Positions 868 to 5,163 of a stretch of DNA of 5,477 nucleotides are shown piece after piece. The notes under the pieces were generated by a model. It saw nothing but the letters and a program-made list of their open reading frames with translations, was not told the DNA's origin and searched no databases. The stretch is from Chloroflexota bacterium (GTDB taxonomy: Bacteria; Chloroflexota; UBA6077; CF-72). Each line of letters starts with the position of its first letter. Positions within the stretch are counted from its first letter, which is position 1. The stretch covers positions 1 through 5,477 of the forward strand of contig JAFAWJ010000613.1 in the NCBI GenBank assembly GCA_019242065.1, in the 5' to 3' direction. The position numbers and the translations under genes were made by a program.

Positions 868-2040
868 TCACAGGGCAGGTAATCCGCTGATGAGCCATCT
901 TACGCCGTTGTCACCCCCCAGCTCAGGATAATTACTCGCGACGTCGTCACACAGCCGGATGAGCTGAGCCTTTTTCGACTGGTCTTCGGCGAATTGATGG
1001 AACTGAAAGGTCGGCGCCGCGTGCTGCTGCCCGCCGCTCAGTGGTGTCCGCACCAGTAAATCGGCCACCGGAAACAACAGACCACCCATTGCGGCGATGA
1101 AGTTCCGTTCCAGGCCATACCGAGTACTCGTCGCACCCGGCTGCACAGTCGATCGTGAGGTCGTATAGATGGCGTCCAGCATGCTCAGAACGAAGCAGTA
1201 GCCGGCATTGAACAGATCCGACAAGCCGCGGACCGGGGGCTCAAAGTCGGCCGTGCGTGGATTCCTTGGCACCGGATAGACAGTGCCGATGCCGTCGATG
1301 CCGTCGGCAATGCGTCGGAACTTTGCATAGTGCGACAACTCGTCCTCACCGAGCACAGGGTCGGCCGGCTCGATGGGCACGCTCGTATCGTGCGGCCGCG
1401 CACCTTCCCCCTGCTCAACGATGGTATCTAGGGCCTGCATCGCAGACTGAATGTCGCAAACGGTAATGGGTTCGCCGCCCCCGTCCTGATTCCAGTAGGC
1501 GCTCGTGTACTGGAGATCGGGACGATTGTTCGCCCACAGAGACGGGGTGTCCAGTGCCTGGAAGCCGAGTCGTATGGCCGCGTAGAACTGCCCGATGGTT
1601 CCGTACCGGTGCGGCTCGGGAGGCGCGTCGGCCTTCTCTGGTAATTCGAGCGGAACAAAAACCTGTGCCATCAACTCGCGTGAACACGGTTCCAGTGGAA
1701 GCTCTAGCGCTGGTATTCGGTGCAACATCCGCGTTGGATACGTTGGCAAGAATCGTTCGTCGTAAAACCGCATCTGGTCGCCGGCCCCGATCGCAACCAT
1801 CAGATTGCGCACAAGCGACAGGTGCAGCATTTCTTCGATCACGACACTTCGGATGGCTCGAAATGCGGAAACCCCAGGTGACCATTGCGAGTAGCTGCGT
1901 GTCTGAATCGAGTAACCCGCATACAGGTACAGGGGAATCGTTGACATTTCCAGTTGAGCTGCCTGATACAGGTGGGCTACGAGGTCGCCCACCGTAGCTA
2001 TGGGTCTTTGCGCATCAACCGCATACGGTGAATCTGTCAT
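868..2040 (-). CDS. VioB-type ferritin-like protein (candidate diiron enzyme)
   Basis: This 390-aa protein belongs by appearance to the ferritin-like family that includes the VioB iminophenyl-pyruvate dimer synthase N-terminal domain. Helix 1 (about residues 15-40) carries LYQAAQLEMSTIPLYLYAGY with Glu31. Helix 2 carries VVIEEMLHLSLVRNLM with Glu70 and His73 in the ExxH arrangement. Later acidic/His positions, Glu209 in IVEQGEG and Glu235/His237 in ELSHYAKF, complete a plausible diiron set. The first half is typical of the family; the C-terminal ~100 residues are less familiar. The start is ATG 2038-2040, chosen because AGGAG (2049-2053 on the plus strand, complement) lies 8 bases upstream and because the ATG overlaps the TGA of the preceding gene (TGATG). 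An in-frame start at 2106 would lie inside that gene and is unlikely. The role is inferred: oxidative tailoring or iron/oxygen chemistry on the peptide made by the operon. Substrate unknown. No signal peptide is visible, so it is probably cytoplasmic. Confidence 0.85.
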   Translation of the reverse strand: MTDSPYAVDAQRPIATVGDLVAHLYQAAQLEMSTIPLYLYAGYSIQTRSYSQWSPGVSAFRAIRSVVIEEMLHLSLVRNLMVAIGAGDQMRFYDERFLPTYPTRMLHRIPALELPLEPCSRELMAQVFVPLELPEKADAPPEPHRYGTIGQFYAAIRLGFQALDTPSLWANNRPDLQYTSAYWNQDGGGEPITVCDIQSAMQALDTIVEQGEGARPHDTSVPIEPADPVLGEDELSHYAKFRRIADGIDGIGTVYPVPRNPRTADFEPPVRGLSDLFNAGYCFVLSMLDAIYTTSRSTVQPGATSTRYGLERNFIAAMGGLLFPVADLLVRTPLSGGQQHAAPTFQFHQFAEDQSKKAQLIRLCDDVASNYPELGGDNGVRWLISGLPAL

Positions 2041-3839
2041 CAACACAGCTCCTGCCTGGGTATTTCGCGAGGGGCAACGCACCCTATGTAGCCTCGCGCA
2101 ATCCACGTCTGCAACCAGGTGCTGACAGCACGCGGAGAGGCCCCGCTTGCCAGCGTCGCTGTTTTGAGCGAGGCGTCGTTCAGCACAAGCTCGAGCACCT
2201 CGCTTTCGAGCGGTTCGAGCCGCGCGACTCTGACGGTGTAATCCGTCCGATTCAGCGCCACGATTGTGTCCTGCGGCGCCGGTATGGGCGTTGGCCTGCC
2301 GTGCTTCACAGCCTCGAAGTACTCATGGACTGGATAGCGAGACCGCTGAACATGCACGCCGGGTGAAACGCGCAGCTCACAGTCGAGCAATCCGCCTTCG
2401 TTTGCAGCACAGCGACCGCACGTCGGCTTGGCGACACGCTCGCAATCCGACCCGTTGTACACCGCAGTGAAGGTGTGCTCGAAGGCGGCCAACTCGATGA
2501 TGAAGTCTGGCCAAGCTGGCGCGTGCCCCGCACCGCGTCTCTTAGGACGGGTGGCGACGAGGTAATCCACAAAGTTGTCGTCTAGATTTGCAAGCGTATA
2601 GCTCGTCGACGGGTGTTGATCAAGATATGCCAATGCAAACTGGTCGAACAACCCTTGCCCCAGCGCATGCAGCAGGGCCGGATGTAGCGAGCGCATCGCC
2701 TCGAGACGACGCCGTCGGCTGCTGAGGCGAGTAAGTCCAACACGCTGCTCAGCGCTCAAACCCCGGGACGCGGCGATGACTCTGTCCAACCTGCCTTGCG
2801 CCGCGGGCAGCGCTGCACGCGCGCGTCTGCTTCTCGCGCCGGCCGCCACGCTGTGTGGATGTCCAAGCACCAGTTGTGTCCAAAGCTGCACCGACCTTAA
2901 ATGGCTTGGGGCGGTCGAGACGCAAGTGGCGACGCCTCGACGATCGCCGCGCGTCGGCGCCGCGGCCTGTTGGTTGGATGCTCTCTCTCTGCAAATGTTG
3001 GTTGGTTCTCGACCAGCGGCCCCATACGCCCTGGCTTTGTCAAGCTCTCCCTCCAGCACGGGAAACGCCGGCAAGTGCTCATCCCACTCGAGGAGCGTCG
3101 ACACCCCATTCGTCAGCGAGACCGCCAGCCGGAACAGGTTCCAAACCGAGTCCGCGACAGGGCCGTCATGCGTGTCGACTGCATGCGTGGAGTTGAGGGC
3201 GTGCCCAGCGACGTGCATCTGTACCACGCGGCTGGGCGGCAACGCCCGCAGATAGGTCTCCGGATCGAACCCGTGATTCACCGACGAAACGAACACGTTG
3301 TTCACGTCGAGCAACAGACCGCAATCCGCCTCTTCCGCCATCCTGGCCAGGAAGTCCCATTCGGTCAACGTCGATTCGATATAGCTGAAGTACGTGCTCG
3401 GATTTTCGAGCACCAGTGGGCGCTCGAGATAGTCCTGGACAATCCGGATCCGCTCCACCACGTGCGCCAGGGACGCTTCCGTCAGTGGGAACGGCACAAG
3501 CTCGTGGGTATTGGTCCCTGCCACCCCTGTCCAGCACACGTGATCCGATACCCAGATTGCTCGGGTCGAGCTTGCCAGTTGCTTGACCTGGGCAAGATAT
3601 TCAAAATTTACGGGGTCGGTACTGGCAATCGAGAGTGAGACGCCATGCATGACGACTGGATACTGCTCGGCGACAGAGTCGAGTACATAGCGTGGCCAAC
3701 CGCTGGACCTGAGAAAATTCTCAGACACGATCTCGAACCAGTCGACTCGAGATCGGTGGTGCAGGACGTAGTCAAAGTGCGCCGAGCGCAACCCCACCCC
3801 GAGACCGAGCGATGGGAGACCCAGCCGTGACTGCGTCAT
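2040..3839 (-). CDS. MNIO (DUF692) oxidase fused to DUF2063 (BufC/HvfC-like) domain
   Basis: This 599-aa protein has an N-terminal DUF692/MNIO TIM-barrel (residues ~8-272), the family of MbnB, TglH and BufB: iron-dependent oxidases that modify Cys or other residues of ribosomal peptides. Candidate metal ligands are His65 (MHGVSLS), Asp99-His100 (SDHVCW), Glu145 (LVLENPSTY), Asp178-Asn180 (LDVNN), His209/His213 (MHVAGH), Asp222/His224 (DTHDGP) and Glu251 (LEWDEH). After an Arg/Ala-rich linker (~274-312) comes a DUF2063-like domain (~313-515: RSVQLWTQLVLGHP, LSAEQRV, LEAMRSLHPALLHALG, HPSTSYTLANL, WPDFIIELAAFEH, YPVHEYFEAV). In bufferin loci this domain is the separate partner BufC, which recognises the precursor leader. 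The last ~80 residues complete the partner module. The start is ATG 3837-3839, overlapping the precursor stop as ATGA; an in-frame TTG two codons upstream is less likely. The stop overlaps the ferritin-like start. Odd points: the Tyr-rich motif after LSAEQR, usual in DUF2063, reads LTRLSSRRRR here, and the linker may hide a frameshift. Confidence 0.9.
   Translation of the reverse strand: MTQSRLGLPSLGLGVGLRSAHFDYVLHHRSRVDWFEIVSENFLRSSGWPRYVLDSVAEQYPVVMHGVSLSIASTDPVNFEYLAQVKQLASSTRAIWVSDHVCWTGVAGTNTHELVPFPLTEASLAHVVERIRIVQDYLERPLVLENPSTYFSYIESTLTEWDFLARMAEEADCGLLLDVNNVFVSSVNHGFDPETYLRALPPSRVVQMHVAGHALNSTHAVDTHDGPVADSVWNLFRLAVSLTNGVSTLLEWDEHLPAFPVLEGELDKARAYGAAGREPTNICRERASNQQAAAPTRGDRRGVATCVSTAPSHLRSVQLWTQLVLGHPHSVAAGARSRRARAALPAAQGRLDRVIAASRGLSAEQRVGLTRLSSRRRRLEAMRSLHPALLHALGQGLFDQFALAYLDQHPSTSYTLANLDDNFVDYLVATRPKRRGAGHAPAWPDFIIELAAFEHTFTAVYNGSDCERVAKPTCGRCAANEGGLLDCELRVSPGVHVQRSRYPVHEYFEAVKHGRPTPIPAPQDTIVALNRTDYTVRVARLEPLESEVLELVLNDASLKTATLASGASPRAVSTWLQTWIARGYIGCVAPREIPRQELC
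2049..2053 (-). promoter_or_regulatory. Shine-Dalgarno for the ferritin-like gene
   Basis: The minus strand reads AGGAG eight bases before ATG 2040-2038. It lies inside the last codons of the MNIO gene. This site fixes the ferritin-like start at 2040 rather than at the longer in-frame opening at 2106, and together with the TGATG overlap it points to coupled translation. Confidence 0.7.
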
Positions 3840-4348
3840 TCGCAACCGGTGAACTCTTTTTCGTACAAAGGTACGAGATCGTCGGGGTAACCTTCCCCAG
3901 GAGACGGCCCAAAGGGAACGCCCGCATCGTACATCCGCTGTTCAAAGAGCGCACGCGCCAGTTTCCAGACGCTCCTTCCCTTATTCTGACCGGCAGAGCT
4001 GACGCGACTGACGTTGATGGGACTTGCGCAGCTTCCATTGGACGCACACGCTTGGGCACCAGGCTTGCCCTGCTCCACCTCCGAGCCAGCGTACCCACAT
4101 CCCCCCTGCCCTCGACAGGCGTTGGACCCGTGGCACACGTGCATGGCAGTCGCACAGTTGCCCATGCCCGCCATCGCCCCGGTGTTTCCGGCACCATGCT
4201 GGCTGCAGGCATTCAGGCCCATACACACGTGCAGCTCAACGGCAGCTTGAACTTCCTGTGGCGGCCTGCGTGGGCCACCGGCCTCGTGAGCGGCTGCACG
4301 GCGCTGGCGGGCGGCCGACTGGCCTGGCGTGGACTCTTCGGACATCAC
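3836..4348 (-). CDS. Cys-rich candidate RiPP precursor with C-x5-C repeats
   Basis: This 170-aa protein has a polar, Arg/Ala-rich N-terminus with no hydrophobic signal peptide. A Cys-rich Gly/Asn segment follows at residues 40-107, and a conserved-looking tail at ~109-170 (SPINVSRVSS, SVWKLARALFEQRM, VPFGPSPGEGYPDDL). Cys lie at 42, 48, 65, 72, 78, 84, 101, 107 and 169. Spacing is strikingly regular: 42/48, 72/78/84 and 101/107 are all C-x5-C, and HVCMGLNAC and HVCHGSNAC are near repeats. I recall similar uncharacterised Cys-repeat proteins beside DUF692 genes. It directly precedes the MNIO gene (ATGA overlap), so it is the natural substrate; Cys oxidation to thiooxazole-, thioamide- or oxazolone-type groups, and metal binding, are inferred. 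The start is uncertain: GTG 4348-4346 is 9 bases after AGGAG, while ATG 4345-4343 is 12 bases after it but makes a TGATG overlap with the upstream ORF. The two starts differ by one residue. Confidence 0.82.
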   Translation of the reverse strand: MMSEESTPGQSAARQRRAAAHEAGGPRRPPQEVQAAVELHVCMGLNACSQHGAGNTGAMAGMGNCATAMHVCHGSNACRGQGGCGYAGSEVEQGKPGAQACASNGSCASPINVSRVSSAGQNKGRSVWKLARALFEQRMYDAGVPFGPSPGEGYPDDLVPLYEKEFTGCE

Positions 4349-4729: not shown

Positions 4730-5163
4730 ATGCTGATGACAACCGAGCTGTCCGGCCGGCATGCTGTGCCGGTGGACGAGCCAGCCGACCCCGAGGTGCG
4801 CGAGCGTGCGAGGCGCCGGGTGTTTTCCGCGCAGTACGAACTGAAGATCCTGGCTGAGTACGAACGCAGGAGTCCAGTCATGCGAAGTGCGCTGCTTCGC
4901 CGCGAGGGGTTGTCCACCTCGTCGATCTCGGAGTGGCGCCGCCAGCGGGACGCGGGCGCACTGCAGGCGCTCGGGGGACCCGCGGCCGGCGGGTGGCTCA
5001 GCCGAGTGAGCGTGAGCTGGAGTGGCTGCGTCAGGAGGTGACGCGGTTGCAGGCCGAACTGGGCAAAGCCCAGCGGGTCATCGATGTCCAGCGCAAACTC
5101 TCCGCGCTGCTGGAGCAGCTCGCCACGGGCAGCGCGGAGCCGAGCGGCGGCGAGCCGACGTAG
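4730..5163 (+). pseudogene. IS3-family orfA, DNA-binding subunit, one frameshift
   Basis: From ATG 4730 the first frame encodes [19 protein letters not shown] and then [20 protein letters not shown], the helix-turn-helix of IS3-family orfA (about residues 29-75), continuing to [10 protein letters not shown]. The product then makes sense only in the next frame (-1 shift, somewhere in 4970-4995, near GGGGGA): [20 protein letters not shown], a leucine-zipper coiled coil typical of orfA, ending [15 protein letters not shown] with TAG 5161-5163. Staying in the first frame ends at 5041 in an unlike tail. The helix-turn-helix normally binds the element ends and the zipper mediates oligomerisation. 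The stop overlaps the orfB GTG (TAGTG). The nearest purine-rich site is about 25 bases upstream, so the true start could differ; the ATG at 4736 is an alternative. Confidence 0.75.

Follow-up and report, generated by a model that had tools for sequence, protein, structure and literature searches.

A conserved operon links a bufferin-like Cys-rich protein and its MNIO to a ferritin-like protein

We describe an operon in which genes for a Cys-rich protein (PREC), an MNIO, a DUF2063 partner and a ferritin-like PF12902 protein (FER) lie together, and which we found in four phyla. Our findings point to a metal-handling protein system undescribed in the literature that we searched, where no account of a PREC-MNIO-DUF2063-FER operon was found (subscription papers and supplements lay outside the scope of the search). 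With middling confidence, we propose that the operon is a maturation cassette derived from bufferin 2, whose modified PREC would be cytosolic and would work with a dedicated FER of the diiron type.

The window, by which we mean the whole stretch of 5,477 nucleotides analysed here (Chloroflexota bacterium, contig JAFAWJ010000613.1), carries three ORFs on its minus strand, each overlapping the next. Both the ORF check and the Pfam domains bear out the initial annotation, which had described three overlapping minus-strand genes for a Cys-rich, an MNIO-DUF2063 and a ferritin-like protein. The features are:

3836..4348, minus strand: PREC, Cys-rich, putative MNIO substrate, 170 aa (start GTG 4348 or ATG 4345)
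4091..4234, minus strand: Buf2-like six-Cys segment of PREC (C42, C48, C65, C72, C78, C84), from hhalign to BufA2
4013..4054, minus strand: extra PREC Cys pair C101, C107, invariant in 46 members and absent from the BufA2 alignment
3926..3970, minus strand: conserved C-terminal helix of PREC (VWKLARALFEQRM), predicted helix 127-141, pLDDT 83-88
2040..3845, minus strand: MNIO-DUF2063 fusion gene (ATG 3839 the likely start)
3024..3803, minus strand: MNIO domain (PF05114), BufB family (Pfam E 1.6e-100; NF050167 335.6 vs cut-off 310)
2559..2780, minus strand: DUF2063 domain (PF09836), PME-type 1 partner (34.5 bits vs cut-off 27.2)
2172..2687, minus strand: HvfC-like partner region including a putative RRE part (NF050145 39.5 bits, below cut-off 142)
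868..2040, minus strand: FER, ferritin-like protein, 390 aa (start ATG 2040)
1306..1971, minus strand: PF12902 domain of FER (Pfam E 2.2e-44, over cut-off)

The PREC stop and the MNIO ATG at 3839 overlap by 4 nt (ATGA), and the MNIO stop and the FER start by 1 nt (TGATG). The flank beside the operon, at window positions 4730-5163 and onward, shows traces of a transposase accessory gene of the IS66 type at 4730-5041 (NF047595, E 7e-4, under the cut-off), and nothing in the remainder of this flank could be assigned.

Genome contigs searched with the PREC alignment gave 94 confirmed relatives, and the 80 loci kept from these make 81 with the window; purpose-built HMMs were used to detect the four domains in them. 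All four are present on one strand in 77 of the 81 loci, the other four loci (L018, L041, L059 and L075) running into contig ends, and the domains detected share one strand everywhere (81/81). The gene order is PREC-MNIO-DUF2063-FER in 44 loci and FER-PREC-MNIO-DUF2063 in 33. Two of the 77 complete loci look broken, L031 (FER at 24 bits, DUF2063 short) and L044 (MNIO at 78 bits). In L044 (7980-9225) and L100 (3169-4857), deletion seems to have shortened the operons and joined pieces of PREC, MNIO and FER.

The conservation of the gene association across genomes, proposed as a check by the initial annotation, holds in these loci, and surveys of Streptomycetaceae and Bacteroidota agree. Among 200 Streptomycetaceae genomes, PREC was found in 11 (eight full, G458 and G376 partial, G416 at 24.5 bits), PF12902 in 91 and PF05114 in 158. 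MNIO and FER adjoin PREC in all eight intact PREC genomes. Among the matches listed, exactly eight Streptomycetaceae MNIOs exceed 340 bits, all adjoining PREC and FER, and the next scores 284.5 bits; by eye, no FER lies within 10 kb of the other MNIOs listed. The sample of 198 Bacteroidota genomes yielded PREC in five (four of them strong), PF12902 in six and PF05114 in 15, with FER and MNIO beside PREC in the four strong genomes (4/4). The Bacteroidota MNIO genomes looked at were these four PREC-linked ones and G652, whose locus (L114) has, in place of PREC, a precursor that is Buf2-like and hydrophobic at its N-terminus, and whose 9 kb stretch gave no match to FER or DUF2063. A search of the phylum Actinomycetota found PREC in 2 of 246 genomes, and this rare and patchy occurrence counts against our proposal.

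Homologues of PREC at E<=1e-3 account for 346 of 519 candidates, so PREC is no chance ORF. The family spans 144-226 aa among the 120 matches listed, and its members are longer in some loci. The initial annotation had counted nine Cys in the putative substrate: eight of them (42, 48, 65, 72, 78, 84, 101 and 107) are invariant in an alignment of 46 members from Actinomycetota, Bacteroidota and Acidobacteriota with the window as row 1, whereas C169 varies. W128, A131, R132, F135 and E136 of the C-terminal helix are likewise invariant in the 46 members, and this helix is a possible recognition element. The predicted PREC fold, with a mean pLDDT of 63, had no match in the PDB at E<=0.001. Using a simple hydrophobicity window rather than a dedicated predictor, on the first 45 residues of PREC and 40 of BufA2, we obtained a median KD12 of 0.93 across the 81 loci vs 2.02-2.37 in six BufA2 proteins. 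By this measure PREC has no signal-peptide-like stretch; the hydrophobic N-terminus of L046 (KD12 2.9, start uncertain) counts against a cytosolic PREC. Since PREC is a conserved protein without such a stretch, the label 'metallopeptide' given in the initial annotation appears doubtful. Upstream of the operon, neither metal-regulator boxes nor shared dyads beat shuffles, and the outcome for the boxes counts against our proposal.

The closest known system is bufferin 2, with which the operon shares a BufB-type MNIO, a DUF2063 partner, the A-B-C gene order and the six-Cys motif. Six BufA2 proteins from plasmid operons, all over the BufA2 cut-off, align with PREC by hhalign at E 1.3e-9, with 44% identity over 36 columns; the alignment spans C42 to C78 and the match of C84 was added by eye. 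In this way, six of the eight invariant PREC Cys fit the Buf2 bufferin motif. A likeness to BufA2 below threshold extends to 32/32 members of one PREC alignment at E<=1 (best 3.2e-6). However, the BufA2 model gives the window PREC 15.7 bits vs a cut-off of 60, which counts against our proposal, and the cut-off was passed in none of 14 genomes. Unlike BufA2, PREC lacks a signal peptide and has the extra Cys pair and the C-terminal helix, and unlike in Buf2, a FER gene is always near; no FER match came from the seven bufferin plasmid loci L102-L108, whose MNIO is of the same kind. In the MNIO tree, the FER-linked MNIOs nest among the Buf2-type ones, with L101 and L114 left without a resolved place; the FER-linked rows require two label changes and the branch of 30 rows stands at 93/94, below the star. 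The initial annotation had suggested a class distinct from the characterised MNIO systems; the BufB equivalog match, the nesting within the Buf2 type and the six-Cys motif do not support so remote a place.

Other MNIO systems are more remote. Captophorins and oxazolins (EGKCG precursors of the HvfABC type; available text of PMC13097082) have the same MNIO and DUF2063 partner and a Cys-rich precursor, but the window MNIO falls below the HvfB model (239.9 vs 360) and PREC has no EGKCG repeat. The MbnB model of methanobactin (TIGR04159) is also missed (58.7 vs 325). DUF692-DUF2063 clusters with six Cys are mentioned in the accessible part of PMC8692599. The adjamnio-I family, as described in the available main text of PMC12452194, resembles PREC in its Cys-rich precursors (122-293 residues, 8-21 Cys) without a signal peptide, encoded before the MNIO; that description sets it apart, its published partner being PME-type 2 vs DUF2063 (PME-type 1) here, where DUF2063 was over cut-off in 10/10 partners tested among the relatives. 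The same text links signal peptides to PME-type 1 and precursors without them to PME-type 2, and the PREC system breaks this rule as stated there. The word 'ferritin' is absent from the main text of PMC12452194 and from the text of PMC8692599, and in the accessible text of PMC8224329 'ferritin-like' appears solely within a reference.

The fusion of MNIO and DUF2063, presented in the initial annotation as marking the system, is a sporadic trait, as only 3 of the 81 loci (the window, L013 and L014) have both in one ORF. The fused frame is open in the window and in P0121 (599 aa, 99% identical but not identical). We considered an assembly fault in the window, which is unlikely since P0121 has the same fusion. 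Both flanking domains share one frame, and the linker (about residues 280-360) has a codon-position GC of 0.66/0.66/0.68; with the three positions so alike, the linker could still hold compensating shifts. P0125 and P0200 were also listed as fusions, with a junction that looks frameshifted by eye; the length limits of that list, from which P0121 too was taken, exclude most unfused MNIOs, so it gives no prevalence. Matches to TAL effectors at residues 330-402 of the fusion gene were taken as a compositional likeness of an Ala/Leu/Arg-rich stretch and set aside.

FER had been called VioB-type. Its PF12902 domain upholds the ferritin-like part of this claim, and FER shares the fold and the ligand-type residues with VioB and other PF12902 proteins (3hl1), but its score on the model for VioB itself (iminophenyl-pyruvate dimer synthase, TIGR04492) is 41.8 vs a cut-off of 1250. 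The residues E31, E70, H73, E212, E234 and H237, of the diiron type, are invariant in 50 sequences with the window as row 1, and would bind metal. In a tree where every unlinked FER comes from Streptomycetaceae, the FERs linked to an MNIO are separate from the 19 unlinked PF12902 proteins sampled; MNIO, PREC and DUF2063 were not found within stretches of 3-7 kb around these 19 hand-chosen genes. By eye, other Streptomycetaceae PF12902 genes adjoin ORFs resembling flavin oxidoreductases (L083, L085).

A natural fusion links FER directly to PREC. A tblastn search of plasmids with PREC returned two weak Pseudoalteromonas matches that turned out to be this fusion: in Pseudoalteromonas sp. NC201 (L101), a 775-aa ORF combines PF12902 (E 3.7e-18) with a Cys domain resembling PREC (probability 96 and E 3.3e-9 by hhalign), followed downstream by MNIO and DUF2063. 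P. piscicida has the protein at 99.4% identity, giving two plasmid records in total. The fused protein keeps only part of the eight Cys of PREC. About 2 kb away from this fusion is a tricorn-type peptidase, which counts against our proposal.

We also looked at the surrounding genes, considering only clusters present in five or more loci and reading them by eye. Eleven Flavobacterium loci (L047, L065, L069, L071, L072, L074, L076-L080) have two extra enzyme genes upstream of FER, one encoding a protein that resembles flavin amino-acid oxidases (PDB 7x7i, E 3.4e-152) and the other a thiamine-diphosphate enzyme whose nearest matches, below cut-off, are indolepyruvate decarboxylases. In these loci, the two enzymes indicate small-molecule oxidation over metal buffering. 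An NF040572-type heme-binding protein is encoded near the operon in fourteen loci, nine from Bacteroidota and five from Saccharothrix (L006-L008, L011, L016, L061, L065, L066, L069, L072, L076, L078-L080; two representatives pass the cut-off). A phosphatidylserine-decarboxylase-like gene (PF02666 and PF12588) adjoins the operon in nine Streptomyces, Kitasatospora and 'Streptosporangium' loci (L022, L025, L026, L028, L030, L032-L034, L038). At least one of the four extra gene types occurs in 27 of the 80 loci, or 28 counting a weak match in L046, and none was found in the stretches examined of the other 53. Generic ABC ATPases near seven loci, in scattered places, count against our proposal.

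Several other explanations may be proposed. PREC could be a permanent subunit carrying a peptide-derived cofactor or metal site built by the MNIO, and serving as redox or metal-transfer partner of a FER oxidase whose substrate is a small molecule, e.g. an amino-acid-derived imine. We regard this as unlikely, although the FER-PREC fusion, a PREC conservation resembling that of an enzyme subunit, and the Flavobacterium enzyme genes all speak for it. Flavin oxidases are paired with PF12902 proteins in VioA-VioB and RebO-RebD. In fungi, according to the accessible text of PMC4417212, lodA-type oxidases have PF12902 genes nearby. Against this, no common small-molecule enzyme is evident, as the 53 loci lacking the extra gene types illustrate, and the six-Cys motif belongs to a copper-binding family. 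FER could instead act as an additional tailoring enzyme and carry the oxidation of PREC further, e.g. at C101/C107, a pair that is invariant, co-occurs with FER and is absent in BufA2; the fusion, moreover, brings PREC within the reach of FER. This role is quite improbable. PF12902 proteins are not known to act as peptide-modifying enzymes, and according to the available text of PMC12452194 the major precursor families seldom carry secondary modifications.

The least probable role for FER, in our view, is to supply or oxidise iron for the MNIO centre. MNIOs do need a mixed-valent iron centre (PMC13419390, as far as its accessible text goes) and FER does have a ferritin-type site, but the fusion partner of FER is PREC and not MNIO, and bufferin loci with the same kind of MNIO have no FER match; the fusion favours FER acting with PREC over iron supply to MNIO. 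It is also very improbable that what the window carries is a remnant, decaying or accidental, as the IS66-type trace beside the operon and the deletion scars in the relatives L044 and L100 might suggest, since the window ORFs are all open with neat overlaps, the invariant residues named above are all present, and the same fusion is kept in P0121, with such fusions also in L013 and L014.

Returning to the bufferin-2-derived cassette, we envisage that the MNIO, aided by its DUF2063/RRE-type partner (fused to it in the window), would oxidise several PREC Cys, the most likely outcome being 5-thiooxazoles like those of bufferins; the accessible texts of PMC13097082 and PMC12538549 report that MNIO plus PME1 yields 5-thiooxazoles. 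The product would be a protein binding Cu(I) or another soft metal. Because PREC has no signal-peptide-like stretch, it would be cytosolic, most likely remaining whole there as the partner of its dedicated ferritin-like protein, and the diiron-type site of FER may handle or oxidise either the metal or PREC. As a recognition element, the signal peptide may have given way to the C-terminal helix of PREC. A bolder idea, which we find doubtful, is that the MNIO makes no metallophore but a permanent metal or redox site derived from the peptide, so that PREC would be the small cytosolic subunit, matured by a RiPP-type enzyme, of a diiron FER enzyme and sometimes fused to it.

The MNIO literature that we surveyed centres on exported copper-binding peptides. 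If our proposal is true, MNIOs would also mature resident cytosolic proteins, in a system where the bufferin enzyme pair was kept, the signal peptide is gone and FER was added. Likewise, the operon departs from the pairing of signal peptides with PME-type 1 drawn in the available text of PMC12452194, and would thereby offer a way to test directly what such partners recognise.
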